Under the pieces are notes generated by a model, which was not told where the DNA came from, made no database searches, and was given only the letters and a program-made list of their open reading frames with translations. Positions 14,002 through 26,983 of a stretch of DNA of 64,000 nucleotides are shown in pieces (position 1 is the first letter of the stretch; each line of letters starts with the position of its first letter). The DNA is taken from positions 62,001-126,000 of the forward strand of contig CADAOZ010000006.1 in NCBI GenBank assembly GCA_902789735.1, in the 5' to 3' direction. Origin of the DNA: an uncultured Lachnospiraceae bacterium (GTDB lineage: Bacteria; Bacillota; Clostridia; Lachnospirales; Lachnospiraceae). The translations under genes were made by a program, and so were the position numbers.

Positions 14002-15597
14002 TTATTTTTTGAGGGAATGCCGGACCAGTTCCCGGAACAGGGGATGGGCCTTATCCGGCCTGGATTTGAATTCGGGATGGAACTGGACGCCCACATGGAA
14101 ACGGCAGCCGGCGGCTTCCACTGCCTCGACCAGGGTCCCGTCCGGAGAAGTGCCGCTGACGGTCAGTCCCGCCTTCTCCAGCTGCTGCCGATATGTATTG
14201 TTGAATTCAAAACGATGTCTGTGGCGTTCGGAAATCTCCGGTGCGCTGTAAGCCCTCTCCAGAACGGTTCCCGGAAACACCTTACAGGGATAGGCACCCA
14301 GACGCATGGTCCCGCCTTTTCGCAGAATCGCCACCTGCTCTTCCATCAGATCTATGACGCAGTGTTCTCCCTGGGGATCAAACTCCCGGCTGTTCGCGTC
14401 CGCGATGCCGAGTACGTTTCTGGCATACTCAATGACGGAGACCTGCATGCCCAGACATATGCCAAGATAGGGGATATCATGCTGCCTGGCATAGCCGCAG
14501 GCCAGGATCATGCCTTCAATGCCCCGGTCTCCGAAGCCGCCCGGGACCAGAATGCCGTCGGCCGCCTGCAGCTGTTCCTCCAGGTTCTGCTCCGTCAGGT
14601 GTTCGGAATCGATCCAGAGGACTTCAACTTCTGTATCATTCTCATAACCGCCGTGATAAAGGGCTTCCCGCACGGACAGGTAGGAATCGTGCAGTCCCAC
14701 ATATTTCCCTACAATGGCAATCCTGGTATGCCGGCTGGGATGATGGATTCGCTGTACCATTTCCTCCCAGGCAGACAGGCCGGTCATTTCTCCGGACAGC
14801 CCAAGTTCCCGGCAGACCACAGTGTCCAGGCCGTGCCGGTGCAGCATCAGAGGCGCCTCATAGAGACAGTCCATGGTATTGTTTTCGATGACGCAGTCCT
14901 TTTTCACGTTGCAGAACAGGGCGATTTTATCTTTGATGCTCTGTTCCAGCGGACGGTCCACCCGGGTCACGATCAGATCCGGATGAATACCCAGGGCCTG
15001 CAGTTCCTTGACGGAATGCTGGGTAGGCTTGGATTTGTGTTCATTGGATCCGCTCAGCCAGGGTACCAGGGTCACATGGATGAAGAGGCAGTTCTCATGC
15101 CCCTGCTCCAGGGAGACCTGACGGATGGCTTCGATGAACGGCTGTCCTTCAATATCTCCGATCGTGCCGCCGATCTCTGTGATCAGGACGTCGGCGCCGG
15201 AATCCTGGGCACCCATGTATATGAAATGCTTGATCTCATCTGTTATGTGGGGAATCACCTGCACTGTCTGTCCCAGATATTCCCCTTTGCGCTCCCGGTT
15301 CAGTACATTCCAGTAGACTCTGCCGCTGGTCAGATTCGAGTAGCGGGTCAGGTTTTCATCCGTGAAACGCTCATAATGGCCCAGATCCAAGTCCGTTTCC
15401 GCCCCGTCGTCTGTGACAAAGACTTCGCCGTGCTGAAAAGGGCTCATGGTCCCGGGATCCACATTCATATAGGGGTCCAGCTTCTGGGAGGCTACGCGCA
15501 GGCCGCGCATTTTGAGCAGCCGCCCCAGAGACGCAGCTGTGATTCCTTTGCCAAGTCCGGAGACAACGCCTCCTGTTACAAAAATATACTTAGACAC
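14002..15597 (-). CDS. pyrG: CTP synthase (glutamine-hydrolysing)
   Basis: 531 residues. GTG at 15597 is chosen: GGAGGG lies 6-7 bases ahead and the product begins [17 protein letters not shown], the universal CTP synthase N-terminus. The frame stays open for another 68 codons upstream only because it runs through the leader repeat array. The N-terminal amidoligase domain (UTP/ATP sites, [19 protein letters not shown]-type region with L replacing the first residues) is followed by a class I amidotransferase domain with GICLGMQ and a C-terminal His/Glu ([10 protein letters not shown]). It aminates UTP to CTP with glutamine. It has its own promoter and an attenuator-like leader. Confidence 0.97.
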
Positions 15598-15621: not shown

Positions 15622-15795
15622 GCTTGTTTGCCACCTCTGTGTTTGCCACCTCTGGGGTCGTTTGCCGGTCTCCTTGTTTGCCACCTCTGGGGTCGTTTGC
15701 CGTTCTGGGGTCGTTTGCCGTTGTTTGCCACCTCTGGTTTGCCACCTCTGGGGTCGTTTGCCGTTGTTTGCCACCTCTGGGGTCGTTTGCCGGTT
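15622..15795. repeat. ACCTCTGGGGTC-core repeat array in the pyrG leader, GTTTGCC flanks
   Basis: About five copies of GTTTGCCACCTCTGGGGTC and partial units (GTTTGCCG, GTTTGCCACCTCT) are stacked between the leader terminator and the pyrG ribosome site. They would be transcribed as part of the pyrG 5' untranslated region. The core is the same as in the arrays near 6.9, 9.3, 16.0 and 31.4-31.7 kb, but the GTTTGCC flank is private to this locus. Confidence 0.88.
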
Positions 15796-15803
15796 TCGCA
15801 CAA

Positions 15804-15860
15804 TAAAAAAGACAAAGACCCCTTTTCTGTAATGTTACAGAAAAGACGCCTTTGCCTTTT
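15804..15860 (-). promoter_or_regulatory. pyrG leader: ANTAR-type hairpin nested in an intrinsic terminator
   Basis: Starting about 8 bases after the predicted -10, the minus-strand leader forms a 7-bp hairpin, AAAAGGC/GTCTTTT, with hexaloop AAAGGC (15841-15860). The same bases are the 5' arm of a terminator of about 22 bp with one mismatch (15811-15856), followed by CTTTTTTATT. The two structures exclude each other. A at loop position 1 and G at position 4 are the bases ANTAR proteins are known to recognise. Binding by the ANTAR protein encoded at 16003-16587 would let transcription pass into pyrG. Confidence 0.7.
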
Positions 15861-15868
15861 CAACCGAT

Positions 15869-15897
15869 ATCTTACTACTACCGGTGGCAGGTGTCAA
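15869..15897 (-). promoter_or_regulatory. pyrG: pyrG promoter
   Basis: Minus-strand TTGACA (15892-15897), 17-bp spacer, TAAGAT (15869-15874). The predicted start lies a few bases before the leader hairpin. The 405-base gap 15598-16002 contains only this promoter, the leader, the repeat array and the short array at 15953. Confidence 0.85.
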
Positions 15898-16002: not shown

Positions 16003-16587
16003 TCAGCAACGGCCGTGCAGGATATTTTCCGCCGTCTCCCGCTTGCTGAGGCACATGTCCATGGACAGTTTCTGGATGTATCTGTGGGCTTCTTCTTCAC
16101 TCATGCCGCGGGATTCAATGAGGGCCCATTTGGCTCTGTTCACCAGGCGGATCTCTTCCATCTTTTCCTCCAGGGTCATGGTCTTTTTCTGCATGCCCCG
16201 CAGTCTCTCCCGGACGCTGCACATGGAATCCAGAAGCTGCTTGAAGACGGACCGTTCCATGGGTCTTCTGGTGACCAGGACCCCGTGGACGGACATGGCG
16301 GACCGGATCTCGTCATACATGTCGCTTCTGACCAGCAGGAGAGCCACGCGCTCACTGTCTATACAGACATCCACAGCAAGCTTCCTGCCGAACTCGTCCG
16401 GCAGAGGCGCGTTGATGATGACGAGATCGTAATCTCTGTCGGCCAGGATACGCCGGGCTCTGGCCGCGGAGTCTGCCACTGTGACCGGCTCAAACCGTTC
16501 CGGAGGGAAGTAGGGCATGAGCGCGGTATTTATTTTTTTGGCTGCCGATACCAGCAGTACACTGTAGATTGGCCTTGCCCCTGTCAT
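16003..16587 (-). CDS. ANTAR-domain transcription antitermination regulator
   Basis: 194 residues from the ATG at 16587 (AGGAAACTGAC upstream). Residues 1-125 have a response-regulator-like fold, but the phosphoacceptor position is Asn59 (LVIINAPLP, where LDxxMP is usual) and the conserved Lys is Arg (TRRPM), so phosphorylation is unlikely. A helical linker is followed by an ANTAR domain at about 137-192 (EEKMEEIRLVNRAKWALIES, then GMSEEEAHRYIQKLSMDMCL). ANTAR proteins bind hexaloop hairpins in leader RNA and block intrinsic terminators. It sits 109 bases downstream of glnA on the same strand and next to pyrG, whose leader has a matching hairpin. How it senses nitrogen is unknown; contact with GlnA is one possibility. 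Confidence 0.9.
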   Translation of the reverse strand: MTGARPIYSVLLVSAAKKINTALMPYFPPERFEPVTVADSAARARRILADRDYDLVIINAPLPDEFGRKLAVDVCIDSERVALLLVRSDMYDEIRSAMSVHGVLVTRRPMERSVFKQLLDSMCSVRERLRGMQKKTMTLEEKMEEIRLVNRAKWALIESRGMSEEEAHRYIQKLSMDMCLSKRETAENILHGRC

Positions 16588-16696
16588 GTCAGTTTCCTTC
16601 CGCTGCGTCTTCCAGGCCGGCTCCAAAGCTGCGCAGCAATACGCTGCCGAGCGTCCGGTCTTAAAGGTTTTGACTGCCTTCTTTCCGACAGCCTTT

Positions 16697-17932
16697 TCAG
16701 AAGTTGTATTTGTTCAGTCCTGTTCTTTCCAGGTATGCCGTCAGAATCTCTTCCGGCAGGTACTTCCTGATAAAGCTGCTTTCAGCTGCCTTTTCGGCGG
16801 CTTCTTCCAGAGTGGCGGGAAGCCGTTCCAGATCATGCAGTGTTTTCCGGTCAGCCCGGAACAGGTTGATGTTTACGGCCGGCGGCGGTACAAGTTCCTG
16901 CCGCAGTCCTTCCAGCCCTGCATAGATCAAAAGTCCGAACGCCAGATACGGATTGGCCATGGTATCCGGAGACCTGAGCTCGCCTCTTTCATACTTGCCG
17001 AAGGCGGCGGGGACACGGATCAGGGTCGAGCGGTTCTCTCTGGACCAGGAAATATAGCCGGGCGCCATCAGGGTCCCCAGACGCCGGTAGGATTCCGGCA
17101 GAGGATTGAGGAAAAGTGTCATATCACTGATATTGGCAAGGATTCCGGCTATGACCGGTTCCAGTCCGGTCTCATTGTCTCCCGACTTTACCGAGAAGTT
17201 GATATGCATACCGTTGCCGGGCTGGTCCTGCATGGGTTTTGGGGAAAAGTCCGCCCCCGCTCCGTTGCGGTCGGCAATGGCATAGACCACGTTCCGGAAG
17301 GTCATGGCGTCATCCGCGGATTTCAGTGCCTCACAGTAACGGAAATCGATCTCATTCTGGCCGCGTCCCTCTTCATGATGGGAGCTTTCCGGATAGATTC
17401 CCATCTCTTCCAGGGTCATGCAGATTTCCCTGCGGATGTTCTCTCCGCGGTCTGCCGGTCCTACATCCATGTATCCCGCGTTGTCATAAGGGATCCGGGT
17501 GCTCTCTCCTTCCGAATCATTGCGGAAAAGGTAGAATTCCTGTTCCGTTCCAAACCGGAAAGTATAGCCCTCCCGGGCGGCGTCTTCCACGGCCCTGCGC
17601 AGGAATCCTCTGGTATCACAGGCAAAAGGAGTCCCGTCCGGCCATGTAATATCACAATACATGCGGACGACTCTGCCATGTTCCGGCCTCCAGGGGAGGA
17701 TGGCAAGGGTTCCGGGATCGGGATGCAGGAAAATATCAGATGTACTGAAATTCTCAAACCCGGCGACGGCCCAGGCGTCTATGGCAATGCCTTCGCTGAA
17801 GGCCCTGTCAAGTTCGGTGGGCATGATCGATATGTTTTTGGATTTTCCGAAAATATCGCTGAAGGCAAGCCGGATAAATTTTACATCCTCTTCTTCCACA
17901 AACTGCTTTACTTCCTGGCTGGTGTATTTCAT
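16697..17932 (-). CDS. glnA: Glutamine synthetase, type I (short form)
   Basis: 411 residues, somewhat shorter than the usual 440-470. It has the N-terminal beta-grasp region, EQEFYLF (metal ligands), an EGRGQNEIDFRY segment, the nucleotide-site NGMHINFS, and RVPAAFGKYERGELRSPD near the end, all type I features. There is no adenylylation loop tyrosine region of the enterobacterial kind. It makes glutamine from glutamate, ammonia and ATP. AGGAGGATTT precedes the ATG, and a consensus promoter lies 77-105 bases upstream. The leader of this gene does not show the hairpin-terminator of its neighbours. Probably co-transcribed with the ANTAR gene. Confidence 0.94.
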   Translation of the reverse strand: MKYTSQEVKQFVEEEDVKFIRLAFSDIFGKSKNISIMPTELDRAFSEGIAIDAWAVAGFENFSTSDIFLHPDPGTLAILPWRPEHGRVVRMYCDITWPDGTPFACDTRGFLRRAVEDAAREGYTFRFGTEQEFYLFRNDSEGESTRIPYDNAGYMDVGPADRGENIRREICMTLEEMGIYPESSHHEEGRGQNEIDFRYCEALKSADDAMTFRNVVYAIADRNGAGADFSPKPMQDQPGNGMHINFSVKSGDNETGLEPVIAGILANISDMTLFLNPLPESYRRLGTLMAPGYISWSRENRSTLIRVPAAFGKYERGELRSPDTMANPYLAFGLLIYAGLEGLRQELVPPPAVNINLFRADRKTLHDLERLPATLEEAAEKAAESSFIRKYLPEEILTAYLERTGLNKYNF

Positions 17933-19909: not shown

Positions 19910-22900
19910 TCATGCCGTTGTCCCTGTCAGTTCCCGGAAGGCTTCCAGTTCCGCGTGTTCCCTGGAAATGCCCTGCTCCTCATAGCGGCCGATGGTCCGG
20001 ATCATCTTCTGGTAATCCCTGGCGATGACCTTCTTGAAGTTCCGGACTTCCCGGTCAAAATTGTCCAGGATCTCCTGTCCCCGTTCGGAACCGGTGGCCT
20101 GTACATAATCGGTCAGGATCTCTTTCAGTTCTCCAATATCGTATTTGTCCCTGAGCTGCTCCAGCTCGACCATGTCTTTGTTGATCCTGCGGTAGAGGCT
20201 GTGGTCCCTGTCCAGGACATAGGCGATGCCGCCGCTCATGCCGGCCGCAAAGTTCTTGCCCGTGCTGCCAAGAAGCACCGCTCTGCCGCCTGTCATATAT
20301 TCCAGGCCATGGTCGCCGCAGCCTTCCGCCACAGCGGTGGCGCCGGAGTTCCTGACGCAGAAACGCTCACCGGCCACGCCGCAAATATAGGCTGTGCCGG
20401 AAGTCGCCCCGTACAGGGCCACGTTGCCGACGATACAGTTTTCAGCGGCTTTGAACCTGCTGCCTTCCGGCGGGCTCACGATCAGTCTGCCTCCCGAGAG
20501 CCCCTTGCCGAAGCCATCGTTGGCGTCTCCCCTGAGCTGGATGGTCAGGCCGTGGGGAATGAAAGCCCCGAAGGACTGGCCGCCGCCGCCTTCACAATGA
20601 ATCAGGAAGCGGTCCGCGGGCAGGTCTTTGCAGGCACTGCCGTATCTGCGGACGATTTCCGAACCCAGGATGGTCCCGAAAGTCCGGTCTGTCGAGCTGA
20701 CGTCCACGTGAATGGAAGCACTGCTTTCCCCTTTCTTCACGGACTGTTCGAACCAGGGCAGGAGGAACCGTTCGTCCGCTGTCTTTTCCAGGCCGAAATC
20801 ATAGCTGCGGCCGGGGTCAAAACGATTGTCCTTTTCATGGGCAAATCCGGCTGTCAGAATCTGGTCAAAAGCGATGGTTCCCGCGTGGGGCTGTCCGAAT
20901 TTTTCCCGTTTCCGCAGGCAGTCTGTCCTGCCGATCATTTCGTCTACGGTCCGGAATCCCAGGCCGGCCATGATTTCGCGCAGCTGCATGGCCGCGAAGG
21001 TCATAAAGTTCATCAGGTGCTCGGGCTTTCCGGCAAAACGGGCGCGCAGGCGCTCATTCTGGGTGGCTATGCCGACGGGGCAGGTATCTTTGGAACATAC
21101 CCGCATCATCATGCAGCCCAGAGAGACCAGGGGAGCGGTGGCAAAACCATACTCTTCCGCTCCCAGGAGGGCCGCGATGGCCACATCCCTGCCTGTCATC
21201 AGCTTGCCGTCTGTCTCGATCCGGACCCGGGAACGCAGGCCGCTGCGGATCAGGGCCTGGTGGGTCTCGGCGACGCCCAGCTCCCAGGGAAGTCCGGCGC
21301 TGTGGACCGAGCTGTAAGGGGCCGCGCCTGTGCCGCCGTCATAACCGGAGATCAGGACCACCTGGGCGCCGGCTTTGGCAACGCCGGAGGCAATGGTACC
21401 TACGCCTGCTTCCGAAACCAGCTTGACGGATATGCGGGCCCTGCGGTTGGCGTTCTTCAGATCATAGATCAGCTGGGCCAGATCTTCGATGGAGTAGATG
21501 TCATGGTGGGGCGGCGGGGAAATCAGCTGGACGCCGGGCGTCGAGCACCTGGTGGCCGCCACCCAGGGATAGACCTTGGCCGCCGGGAGGTTTCCGCCTT
21601 CACCGGGCTTTGCCCCCTGGGCCATTTTAATCTGGATCTCTTCCGCGCTCAGCAGGTACTCCTCCGTGACACCGAAACGACCGGAAGCCACCTGCTTGAC
21701 CGCGCTGTTCCGGTCTGTCCCCAGCCGGTCGGCGGCTTCTCCGCCTTCACCCGTATTGGAACGGCCGCCCAGGCGGTTCATGGCCAGGGCAATGGTCTCA
21801 TGGGCCTCCCGGGACAGGGAGCCGTAGCTCATGGCGCCGGTCTGGAAACGGCGGACAATCTTTTCGACCGGTTCCACCTGGTCAAGATCGACCGGCTCTC
21901 CCGCGGGTACAAATTCCAGCAGGCCCCGCAGGGTGTGGGGGTGGGCGGCGTCATCGACAAGAGAGGCGTACTGACGGAATTTTTCATAATTTCCGGTCCG
22001 GACTGCCTGCTGCAGGAGGACGATGATCTCCGGACTGTAGAGGTGGTCCTCTTTGCCGGGGCCGCTGCGCAGGTTATGGAAGCCCAGGCTGTCCAGGACC
22101 GGATCCACCGGCAGGCCCATAGGATCGAAGGCCCGGTCATGCCGGTAGGCAATGCCTTCCTCCAGTTCCCGGATGCCGACCCCGCCGACTCTGCTGGCGA
22201 TACCGGCAAAGTATTTGTCGATCACTTCATCCGCCAGGCCTATGGCCTCGAAGATCCTTGCGGACTGGTAGGATTGTATGGTGGAAATGCCCATCTTGGC
22301 GGCGATCTTGACGACGCCTCCCAGCAGAGCTCTGTCATAATCGTAGATGGCTGTGTGCAGGTCTTTGTCCAGCAGGCCCAGGGAAATCAGTTCTTCGATA
22401 CATTCGTGGGCCAGATAAGGATTGACGGCCCTGACGCCGAAGCCCAGGACACAGGCTGTCTGATGGACATTCCTGACCTCCCCGCTCTCCAGGATCAGGG
22501 AGACTGCCGTCCGTTTTCTGGTATGGACAAGATGCTGCTCTACGGCGGAAACCGCCAGCAGGGCCGGAATGGGGACATGGTTCTCATCGACGCCCCTGTC
22601 GGAGAGGATGATGATATTGGTCCCTTCGGATACCGCCCGGTCGACCGACAGGTACAGGTGGTCGACGGCTTTGGAAAGGGAGGTATGTTTGTAATAGAGG
22701 AGGGATATGGTCGCTGTCCGGAAGCCTCTGTGCTTCATGGCTTTGATCTTCATCAGATCCACGCCTGTCAGGATGGGGTTGTTGACTTCCAGGACCGCGC
22801 AGTTTTCACCCTGTTCCTGAAGCAGATCGCCGTCCGAGCCAATGTAAACGGTGGTATCCGTCACGATCTTTTCCCGCAGGGAATCGATGGGCGGGTTGGT

Positions 22901-24439
22901 GACCTGGGCGAACTGCTGCTGGAAGAACCGGTCCAGCAGGGGATAGTTATCGGAAAGAGCCGCCAGGGGAACATCATGGCCCATGGATACCGTGGGCTCC
23001 GCGCCGCCGGCCGCGGCTTCCAGGATGTAAGACCTGACCTCTTCATAGCTGTAGCCGAAAACTTTGTAAAGTCTGTCCCGTTCTGCCTGGCTGTGGACCG
23101 GCACCTGGCGGTTGGGGATGGTCAGCTCCCGGAGATGAATCAGGTAGGCGTCCAGCCATTCCCCGTAAGGATTGGCGGAGGCGTAGAATTCTTTGGCTTC
23201 CTCATCGGATATGATCCGTTTTCTCTGGGTATCGACCAGGAGCATCCGGCCGGGCGTGAGTCTTGCTTTTTTTATGATCCGGGCGGGATCGATATCCAGC
23301 ACGCCGACCTCAGAGGCAAGGATCAGCCGGTGGTCGTCCGTGATGTAATATCTTGAAGGGCGCAGACCGTTCCTGTCCAGCGTGGCCCCGAACAGGTCCC
23401 CATCCGTGAACATGATGGCGGCAGGCCCGTCCCAGGGCTCCATCATGGTCGCATAATAATGGTAGAAGTCCTTCCGAGACTCGCTCATGAAGCGGTTGTT
23501 CTTCCAGGGCTCAGGGATCAGGGTCATCATGGCAAGGGGCAGTTCCATCCCGTTCATATAGAGGAATTCCAGGGTATTGTCCAGCATGGCGGAATCGGAG
23601 CCGCTGGCTGTGATGACCGGATAGATCTTGTCCCGCTCGGACGACAGGAGGGGGGAATGCATGGTCTCTTCTCTGGCCAGCATACGGTCCGCGTTGCCCC
23701 GGATGGTATTGATCTCACCGTTATGGGCAATGAAACGGTAGGGATGGGCTCTTTCCCAGCTGGGCAGGGTATTGGTGGAGAACCTGGAGTGGACCATGGC
23801 AATGGCTGTCTTGTAGGCTTTGCTCTGCAGATCTTCATAGAATCTGCGCAGCTGGCCCACCAGAAACATTCCTTTATAGACAATGGTCCGGGAGGACAGG
23901 GAACAGATATAGGTATCTTCCGAGCTCTGCTCAAATTCCCGGCGGACAACGTAGAGTCTGCGGTCAAAGTCGATTCCTCTGGGAATATCCGCAGGTCTTT
24001 GCAGGAAACACTGCCAGATGGCCGGCATGCAGTCCCTGGCCGGGGCGCCCAGAATCTCAGGATGGATGGGGACTTCACGCCAGCCGATTACGGTAATCCC
24101 TTCTTTTTCAGCGATCACTTCGAACAGCCTTCTGGCGAAGGTCCGCTTCAGGTCATTGCGGGGCAGGAAGAACATGCCGATCCCGTAGTCTCCCGCTTCT
24201 CCGATTTCCATATGCATACGGTACGCCGCAGCCGAAAAGAAAGGATGGGAAATCTGCAGCAGGATACCTACGCCGTCTCCGACTGTGCCGCTGGCGTCCT
24301 TGCCTGCCCTGTGTTCCAGTTTTTCTACGATTGAGAGCGCGTCATCCATTACGGAATACTCCGGCACGCCGTCGATTTTCACGACCGCGCCGATCCCGCA
24401 GGCATCATGTTCTCTGTCATATGAAAGCCCTTTATTCAT
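19910..24439 (-). CDS. gltB: Glutamate synthase, large subunit
   Basis: 1509 residues from the ATG at 24439, which lies about 10 bases after AAAGGATG; the frame is open another 18 codons but those bases are the leader terminator. After MNKGLSYDREHDACGIG, Cys14 becomes the N-terminal nucleophile of the class II amidotransferase domain once processed. A central domain, the FMN/3Fe-4S synthase domain (GAKPGEGGNLP, then a Cys cluster CMMMRVCSKDTCPVG) and the C-terminal beta-helix GXGXG domain (GGGGQSFGAFIPHG...) follow in the normal order. It converts glutamine and 2-oxoglutarate to glutamate. Own promoter and attenuator-like leader. Confidence 0.97.
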   Translation of the reverse strand: MNKGLSYDREHDACGIGAVVKIDGVPEYSVMDDALSIVEKLEHRAGKDASGTVGDGVGILLQISHPFFSAAAYRMHMEIGEAGDYGIGMFFLPRNDLKRTFARRLFEVIAEKEGITVIGWREVPIHPEILGAPARDCMPAIWQCFLQRPADIPRGIDFDRRLYVVRREFEQSSEDTYICSLSSRTIVYKGMFLVGQLRRFYEDLQSKAYKTAIAMVHSRFSTNTLPSWERAHPYRFIAHNGEINTIRGNADRMLAREETMHSPLLSSERDKIYPVITASGSDSAMLDNTLEFLYMNGMELPLAMMTLIPEPWKNNRFMSESRKDFYHYYATMMEPWDGPAAIMFTDGDLFGATLDRNGLRPSRYYITDDHRLILASEVGVLDIDPARIIKKARLTPGRMLLVDTQRKRIISDEEAKEFYASANPYGEWLDAYLIHLRELTIPNRQVPVHSQAERDRLYKVFGYSYEEVRSYILEAAAGGAEPTVSMGHDVPLAALSDNYPLLDRFFQQQFAQVTNPPIDSLREKIVTDTTVYIGSDGDLLQEQGENCAVLEVNNPILTGVDLMKIKAMKHRGFRTATISLLYYKHTSLSKAVDHLYLSVDRAVSEGTNIIILSDRGVDENHVPIPALLAVSAVEQHLVHTRKRTAVSLILESGEVRNVHQTACVLGFGVRAVNPYLAHECIEELISLGLLDKDLHTAIYDYDRALLGGVVKIAAKMGISTIQSYQSARIFEAIGLADEVIDKYFAGIASRVGGVGIRELEEGIAYRHDRAFDPMGLPVDPVLDSLGFHNLRSGPGKEDHLYSPEIIVLLQQAVRTGNYEKFRQYASLVDDAAHPHTLRGLLEFVPAGEPVDLDQVEPVEKIVRRFQTGAMSYGSLSREAHETIALAMNRLGGRSNTGEGGEAADRLGTDRNSAVKQVASGRFGVTEEYLLSAEEIQIKMAQGAKPGEGGNLPAAKVYPWVAATRCSTPGVQLISPPPHHDIYSIEDLAQLIYDLKNANRRARISVKLVSEAGVGTIASGVAKAGAQVVLISGYDGGTGAAPYSSVHSAGLPWELGVAETHQALIRSGLRSRVRIETDGKLMTGRDVAIAALLGAEEYGFATAPLVSLGCMMMRVCSKDTCPVGIATQNERLRARFAGKPEHLMNFMTFAAMQLREIMAGLGFRTVDEMIGRTDCLRKREKFGQPHAGTIAFDQILTAGFAHEKDNRFDPGRSYDFGLEKTADERFLLPWFEQSVKKGESSASIHVDVSSTDRTFGTILGSEIVRRYGSACKDLPADRFLIHCEGGGGQSFGAFIPHGLTIQLRGDANDGFGKGLSGGRLIVSPPEGSRFKAAENCIVGNVALYGATSGTAYICGVAGERFCVRNSGATAVAEGCGDHGLEYMTGGRAVLLGSTGKNFAAGMSGGIAYVLDRDHSLYRRINKDMVELEQLRDKYDIGELKEILTDYVQATGSERGQEILDNFDREVRNFKKVIARDYQKMIRTIGRYEEQGISREHAELEAFRELTGTTA

Positions 24440-24481: not shown

Positions 24482-24540
24482 AAAAAAGGGCAAAGACGTC
24501 TCTAATGTCCGAAAACATCAGAGACGCCTTTGCCTCTTTA
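24482..24540 (-). promoter_or_regulatory. gltB leader: ANTAR-type hairpin nested in an intrinsic terminator
   Basis: Minus-strand stem AGAGGC/GTCTCT with hexaloop AAAGGC (24520-24537) lies within the 5' arm of a 19-bp terminator stem (24489-24534) followed by CTTTTTTATTTT. Compared with the pyrG leader, both stem arms have changed together (AAAGGC/GTCTTT to AGAGGC/GTCTCT) while the loop is identical. Confidence 0.72.
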
Positions 24541-24544
24541 ACGC

Positions 24545-24573
24545 ATCATAGTATCTCCGTGCGGGTTTGTCAA
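24545..24573 (-). promoter_or_regulatory. gltB: gltB promoter
   Basis: Minus-strand TTGACA (24568-24573), 17-bp spacer, TATGAT (24545-24550). Predicted transcription begins about 5 bases before the leader hairpin. The 447-base gap 24440-24886 holds the two divergent promoters, the two leaders and a repeat array. Confidence 0.88.
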
Positions 24574-24591: not shown

Positions 24592-24738
24592 CAGGGAGGA
24601 CTGAACCAGGGAGGTGAACCGGGAAGTCTGACGCCCGGTTCACTTGTGAACCACTAAGTCTGACGCCCGGTCCATTTGTGAACCACTAAGTCTGACGCCC
24701 GGTCCATTTGTGAACCACTAAGTCTGACGCCCGGTTCA
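24592..24738. repeat. Four 32-bp repeats with loop AAGTCTGACG, between divergent gltB and glnN promoters
   Basis: The word AAGTCTGACGCCCGGT occurs at 24624, 24656, 24688 and 24720, an exact 32-bp period. Each unit can fold with TGAACC and GGT(T/C)CA arms around the AAGTCTGACG loop. The same element is present beyond alaS at 56463-56540. There are no unique spacers and no cas genes, so this is not a CRISPR array. Confidence 0.88.
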
Positions 24739-24748
24739 AAATTGGTGG

Positions 24749-24777
24749 TTGACAAGGGGGGAACTTTCCTGTAGAAT
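24749..24777 (+). promoter_or_regulatory. glnN promoter
   Basis: TTGACA (24749-24754), 17-bp spacer, TAGAAT (24772-24777). It diverges from the gltB promoter, with the 32-bp repeats between them. Confidence 0.88.
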
Positions 24778-24787
24778 CACGTTCCAT

Positions 24788-24835
24788 AAAGGCAAAGGCG
24801 TCTTTGAGTCATCAGGCTCAAAGGCGCCTTTTTCT
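24788..24835 (+). promoter_or_regulatory. glnN leader: ANTAR-type hairpin overlapping an intrinsic terminator
   Basis: Hairpin AAAGGC/GTCTTT with hexaloop AAAGGC (24788-24805), starting about 10 bases after the -10. The loop and 3' arm are also the 5' arm of a 15-bp terminator (24794-24831) followed by TTCTGTTTC. Third member of the set with the pyrG and gltB leaders. Confidence 0.72.
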
Positions 24836-24886
24836 GTTTCATCAAAAATAAAAGTGAAAAAACAAAAGTGAAAAGGAGACATGAAT

Positions 24887-26970
<2,084 letters not shown>

Positions 26971-26983
<13 letters not shown>

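Follow-up and report, generated by a model that had tools for sequence, protein, structure and literature searches.

The window analysed here is a stretch of 64,000 nt from an uncultured Lachnospiraceae bacterium. On its minus strand, pyrG, the gene for CTP synthase, occupies positions 14002 to 15597; it was identified with TIGR00337 (786 bits) and Pfam, both scored on a longer open reading frame, and its GTG start at 15597 was chosen by inspection. On the same strand lies the gene of an ANTAR protein with a pseudo-receiver (16003 to 16626), whose ANTAR domain scores 63 bits with PF03861, over the curated cut-off of 27.3. It is the one ANTAR match that a profile search returns from the whole genome, and it sits between glnA and pyrG. 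Upstream of the ANTAR gene follows a type I glutamine synthetase gene (16697 to 17932, minus strand; Pfam and NCBIfam). Its product reaches 325 bits versus a TIGR00653 cut-off of 429 and could be either an enzyme that has diverged or a sensor.

The sequence-only reading of this DNA had placed a TTGACA-17-TAAGAT promoter before pyrG, followed within about 8 bases by a 7-bp hairpin with loop AAAGGC inside the 5′ arm of a T-tailed terminator of about 22 bp. Each of these elements is recovered on the minus strand. The promoter (15897 to 15869) has TTGACA at 15897-15892, a spacer of 17 nt and TAAGAT at 15874-15869, as seen in the sequence, in a scan and with a covariance model (55 bits). The hairpin (15861 to 15840; fold and scan) begins 7 nt past TAAGAT and reads GAAAAGGC[AAAGGC]GUCUUUUC, with the loop at 15853-15848, A at loop position 1 and G at position 4; its stem has 8 bp, or 7 bp if the first G is left out. 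Given the usual distance between the −10 box and the start site, the hairpin is predicted to begin at about +2. Folded alone it reaches −4.8 kcal/mol, and since 9 of 200 shuffles fold equally well, the hairpin is weak by itself. The overlapping terminator (15861 to 15805, with six U at 15810-15805), folded as a 61-nt sequence, reaches −32.4 kcal/mol (z −10.9), a stability attained by none of 200 shuffles, and is 22 to 25 bp long, according to how much of the U tract is included. It pairs the hexaloop and the 3′ arm of the hairpin with downstream bases. In the terminator, the partners of the loop letters are the U run itself or the bases immediately preceding it; therefore, hairpin and terminator are mutually exclusive.

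The start codon of pyrG lies about 210 nt past the U run. The segment in between (15622 to 15809) is full of degenerate copies of GGCAAACGACCCCAGAGGTGGCAAAC. With a tolerance of up to 2 mismatches, their 18-mer core, GGCAAACGACCCCAGAGG, matches the genome 33 times and a reversed control not once. In a near-identical genome (G034), related but rearranged repeats are found between the pyrG terminator and the start codon.

Two further units of this kind, with promoter, hexaloop and terminator, lie in the window, one ahead of gltB and the other ahead of glnN. gltB, encoding the large subunit of glutamate synthase (19910 to 24439, minus strand; NF008730, 1563 bits; ATG start by inspection), has a promoter at 24573 to 24545 (TTGACA, 17-nt spacer, TATGAT) and a leader at 24537 to 24482, in which a hexaloop hairpin (24537-24520, loop AAAGGC) is embedded in a terminator. 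On the plus strand, glnN, encoding a type III glutamine synthetase (24881 to 26983; PF12437, 264 bits), has a promoter at 24749 to 24777 (TTGACA, 17-nt spacer, TAGAAT) and a leader at 24787 to 24835 with its hexaloop hairpin (24787-24806, loop AAAGGC) likewise in a terminator. Both promoters were found in the sequence, in the scan and with the covariance model, and both leaders by folding and scan. The 16-mer AAAAGGCAAAGGCGTC has four matches in the window with up to 3 mismatches versus 0.61 expected: besides pyrG and glnN, it hits gltB twice, in the hairpin and in the terminator arm complementary to that hairpin. A 61-nt block occurs three times at 32-nt spacing (24614 to 24738) in the region that separates the gltB promoter from the divergent glnN promoter.

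We then built a covariance model, R2, of promoter plus hairpin from 13 sequences, including the pyrG, gltB and glnN units of the window; one sequence was left out as misaligned (L046), and two for want of a promoter (L034 and a second L031 copy). A search of the whole genome with R2 returns pyrG, gltB and glnN at E-values of 6e-7 or better. A fourth match (E 0.018) lies ahead of a gene for an ammonium transporter with a fused PII domain; matches beyond it (E 1 and above) were taken as noise. In a separate scan, hexaloop hairpins lying in the 5′ arms of terminators were sorted by their loop letters at positions 1 and 4. The window has four loops of the A1/G4 class, three of which (pyrG, gltB and glnN) lie no more than 14 nt from a promoter; the remaining 15 classes together account for seven loops, none with a promoter.

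The scan was extended to 80 Clostridia loci (1.19 Mb) around relatives of the ANTAR protein, the best 80 of at least 591 confirmed relatives. These loci hold 164 A1/G4 terminator hexaloops, 94 of them with a promoter ending at most 14 nt away, as against 398 hexaloops with 16 promoters for the 15 other classes together; the promoter threshold differs slightly from that of the window and the 30-locus scan, and the 94 matches are unpruned, a few of them (in L214, L219 and L232, for example) being doubtful. At 30 type III glutamine synthetase loci (L031 to L060, own genome included; 52 of 61 genomes had a match), the corresponding counts are 16 A1/G4 loops, 11 with a promoter, and 16 loops of other classes, none with a promoter. 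Taken by these sequence criteria, the predicted unit is widespread.

Among the 80 loci, 62 carry core-type elements (136 in total), and none was found in the fetched sequence of the other 18. Ninety elements, in 55 loci, are promoter-proximal; their −35 box is exactly TTGACA in 79 and their spacer 17 nt in 78. The hairpin begins at predicted positions +1 to +8 in 85 of the 90, and a median of 52.5 nt separates the first base of the hairpin from the end of the terminator stretch. The sequence-only reading had also held that no room exists for a first hairpin between the start site of pyrG and the hairpin described here. The promoter position being kept in relatives speaks for this claim, which holds if the predicted promoter is right.

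By nearest gene, the 94 promoter-proximal A1/G4 matches fall to glnN (35), the first gene of a split glutamate synthase (33), gltB (6), gdhA (6), glnA (5), pyrG (3), purA (1) and asnB (1), and 4 have none. Target names derive from tblastn against genes with checked domains, except for the first gene of the split synthase, which has no Pfam match at 1e-10 and owes its name to its sequence and to the gltB matches that follow downstream of it. Other first genes at matches in relatives encode an ammonium transporter-PII fusion, GMP synthase, NAD synthase and a symporter of the sodium:alanine type. The unit stands directly before pyrG in L110 (a near-identical genome), L125, L206 and L244, and about 0.8 kb before it in L211, with another open reading frame in between. 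Six matches in relatives (L144, L148, L149, L151, L157 and L158) were judged by eye to be chance, and at L143 (gdhA) the loop is present and the scan found no terminator. In G023 (L034, 2120-2200, minus strand), gltD-like sequence and glnN flank a unit that has no clear promoter, an arrangement like that of an operon-internal attenuator. Hence, on the evidence of these comparisons, the pyrG leader is one part of a predicted regulon and of a class-wide architecture.

The hairpin itself was examined at sites chosen blind to the stem, as a promoter followed, after 9 to 20 nt, by CAANGRYG; the 80 loci gave 95 such sites with 74 distinct cores. The closing C-G pair belongs to the selection string. 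Counted outward, pairs 2 to 6 are formed in 74, 74, 72, 69 and 62 of the 74 cores, versus means of 73.9, 57.2, 53.7, 36.9 and 51.4 when the 3′ letters are shuffled; pair 2 is uninformative on covariation because of its shuffle mean of 73.9. Pairs 7 and 8 (43 and 25 of 74) are not above the best shuffle. Stem letters differ between sites and pairing is kept, whereas the pairing frequency of 95 controls with different loops is 0.34 to 0.44. Moreover, 91 of the 95 sites run into an overlapping terminator, as compared with 22 of 99 and 31 of 156 controls. The covariation score of the 13 seeds is 0.677 versus 0.307 when shuffled, most seeds themselves having come from a pairing scan.

R2 was also searched at E≤0.001 in 61 genomes, those of relatives and the own genome included. 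Matches occur in 22 genomes, all among the 44 with an ANTAR gene (one at exactly 0.001), and in none of the 17 without. With the ten seed genomes left out, the counts are 12 of 34 versus 0 of 17 (Fisher 0.004, kinship ignored); in a class-wide sample of 148 genomes at the same threshold, they are 31 of 73 versus 3 of 75 (Fisher 9e-9, kinship again ignored). A match at this threshold is absent from 22 of the 44 ANTAR-bearing relatives and 42 of the 73 in the class sample, and the ANTAR proteins of such genomes may be of other kinds. The match in G180, which lacks an ANTAR gene, was judged false by its loop. G103 and G099 (L278, L279 and L280) carry convincing elements, and a search for an ANTAR protein in them detected none; an incomplete assembly or another regulator could explain these exceptions.

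The predicted structure of the ANTAR protein (a 191-residue piece; mean pLDDT 93.6, pTM 0.75) comprises a receiver fold, a long helix and an ANTAR bundle, and its best match among solved structures is EutV bound to RNA (6ww6; TM 0.76 for the predicted model). In the motif DLVIINAPLP, Asn takes the phospho-acceptor position, aligned to the Asp of Rv1626, and by inspection Asp occurs at this column in none of the 14 aligned rows (alignment A7). The receiver domain is thus short of the acceptor Asp expected in a response regulator that phosphorylation activates. Residues of EutV named by Walshe et al. 2022 (PMC8934654) were placed on the alignment by fitting the EutV numbering. All 14 rows share the counterparts of K149, E160 and M172; Tyr164, which in EutV stacks on G4 of the loop (PMC8934654), is replaced by His throughout, and Arg142 is not conserved. 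As modelled, the protein resembles AmiR of P. aeruginosa in its receiver fold without phospho-acceptor, coiled coil and ANTAR domain; it differs in that the sequence match is weak and the neighbour here is a glutamine synthetase gene. Proteins of this kind in clostridia, with a pseudo-receiver and an ANTAR domain, carry the name NitR, for which nothing useful was found in the open literature; the protein here is NitR-like. Most likely this ANTAR protein binds the single hexaloop. Since the phospho-acceptor Asp is replaced, the signal would reach it through a partner of the pseudo-receiver; it is probably nitrogen or glutamine status, and the partner is perhaps the adjacent glutamine synthetase, which fits the target genes.

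We conclude, with a probability of roughly 80%, that these leaders act as promoter-proximal antitermination switches in which an ANTAR protein recognizes one hexaloop; protein binding, the direction of control, the start sites and the signal are what we infer from sequence. RNA polymerase would start at the hairpin or a few bases before it, and the single hexaloop would be made by the first 20 nt or so of the transcript. If no active ANTAR protein is present, the lower part of the terminator would be formed by the hexaloop together with the 3′ arm of the hairpin, and transcription would then stop about 55 nt in. Active ANTAR protein, encoded beside pyrG, would bind the emerging A1/G4 hexaloop and block the terminator, and pyrG, gltB, glnN and probably the ammonium transporter would then be transcribed. 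For pyrG this reading is strengthened because the unit recurs elsewhere before pyrG and other glutamine and ammonia genes, because its matches co-occur with ANTAR genes, because the stem is kept at stem-blind sites, and because a first hexaloop is not enriched within 25 nt upstream. The claim that CTP synthase would be controlled by antitermination through one hexaloop thus gains support from the comparison with relatives. Counted against it are the short time for ANTAR binding that the median of 52.5 nt leaves, the elements of G103 and G099, the change of Tyr164 to His with the loss of Arg142, the fact that EutV needs both hexaloops in vivo, the lack of an R2 match in about half of the ANTAR-bearing genomes, the 18 of 80 loci in whose fetched sequence no core-type element was found, and the 9 of 46 elements away from a promoter that have a further A1/G4 hexaloop 38 to 52 nt upstream.

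Published work describes the ANTAR target as two hairpins, both essential, and searches have used that dual model (Ramesh et al. 2012, PMC3369931). Both hexaloops are needed by EutV in vivo (PMC3369931, PMC8934654), and dual stem-loops were again required in PMC8164766. In vitro, EutV nevertheless binds P1 alone or P2 alone (Walshe et al. 2022, PMC8934654); in the same paper, P1 is proposed as a recruitment hairpin, the minimal binding motif is redefined as one hexaloop, bioinformatic work is called for, and single sites are suggested where the transcribing polymerase imposes no time limit. The leaders described here share with these single sites the one hexaloop as minimal motif, and differ in that the site lies in a terminator within about 55 nt of the predicted start. 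With the dual-hexaloop eut, nas and ami leaders they share an A1/G4 hexaloop overlapping a terminator, an ANTAR gene in the genome and nitrogen genes; they differ in having one hexaloop, no P1 close upstream, a hairpin formed by what are predicted to be the first transcribed bases, and a loop confined to AANGRY and closed by a C-G pair. The theme of nitrogen and glutamine genes is not new, since dual motifs before glutamate and glutamine synthases and ammonium transporters are already listed in PMC3369931. We found no earlier report of a one-hexaloop antitermination leader in a search that covered mostly the open literature.

Of the features by which Ramesh et al. 2012 recognized targets, the A1/G4 six-base loop on a stem of at least 3 bp, the overlap with the terminator 5′ arm and the ANTAR gene in the same genome (G103 and G099 excepted) are all found here; a second A1/G4 hexaloop a short linker upstream is not (up to 25 nt). 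A first A1/G4 hexaloop occurs within 25 nt upstream of 3 of the 90 promoter-proximal and none of the 46 other elements, no more commonly than the other loop classes (0 to 3 and 0 to 2, respectively). This test recognized the classical dual site in one of nine fetched eut regions (L261), so its sensitivity is known only roughly. Could two hexaloops still be needed, with the second one supplied by a divergent nascent RNA bridged by the dimer, by a tandem unit, or by upstream transcripts? The arrangement of the elements offers some room for this. Divergent promoter-proximal elements form 23 pairs at 102 to 251 nt from loop to loop, gltB and glnN in the window are 263 nt apart, and two divergent nascent RNAs so near could meet one ANTAR dimer. 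Tandem units form 17 pairs at 65 to 152 nt. Furthermore, 9 of the 46 elements without a close promoter have another A1/G4 hexaloop 38 to 52 nt upstream, as compared with 0 to 4 for eight other loop classes; these hexaloops mostly belong to the previous unit of a tandem, and a helping role for them is possible in such elements. Against this explanation, 44 of the 90 promoter-proximal elements lie outside any such divergent pair, the pyrG element of the window has no partner element near, A1/G4 loops show no excess within 25 nt upstream, and antitermination was lost when 20 nt were added to the EutV linker (PMC8934654). A second A1/G4 hexaloop inside the terminator is found in 11 of the 136 elements, within the range of other classes (5 to 22). 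On balance, a persisting need for two hexaloops appears improbable.

Divergent glnN and split glutamate synthase genes are a frequent arrangement (L170 to L249), their hexaloop leaders lying 102 to 251 nt apart. The glnN leaders of G034 (L031, 1269-1480) and G019 (L033, 2100-2325, minus strand) have two tandem hexaloop terminators, and that of the window has one.

It is less probable still that the hairpin-terminator units are real and answer to another RNA-binding protein or a ligand, or that the hairpin mainly protects the 5′ end of the mRNA. The units of G103 and G099, present where no ANTAR protein was detected, would suit such an explanation, and conservation of the loop could stem in part from its role as base of the terminator stem. 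However, the A1/G4 loop rule is the ANTAR rule, the stem varies in its letters with pairing kept, and R2 matches are strongly associated with ANTAR genes. Nor does a known RNA family fit: Rfam at its gathering threshold finds one tRNA in the window and nothing for the leaders, and a relaxed search of five loci gave implausible animal families only, far under their cut-offs.

Bacillus-type attenuation of pyrG is CTP-responsive and relies on reiterative transcription at a GGGC start; the pyrG leader here resembles it in the terminator close to the start site, but a CTP-sensing attenuator specific to pyrG is very improbable given that the predicted transcript start has no GGGC and that the unit is common to gltB, glnN and other non-pyrimidine genes.

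A widespread natural regulon with one hexaloop at the predicted start would conflict with the two-hexaloop rule derived from EutV, and searches with dual-hairpin models are expected to miss targets of this kind. We somewhat favour the broader view that, in Clostridia, a single hexaloop at +1 would be the standard and sufficient signal for ANTAR antitermination of nitrogen and glutamine genes, promoter nearness replacing the recruitment hairpin, and that the two-hexaloop rule would be a special case of EutV, NasR and AmiR leaders. The leaders would offer a minimal system of about 60 nt for testing how an ANTAR dimer beats a terminator. If the switch operates as proposed, many Clostridia would coordinate glutamine synthesis (glnN, glnA, gltB and ammonium transport) with enzymes that spend glutamine, such as CTP synthase, GMP synthase and asparagine synthase.
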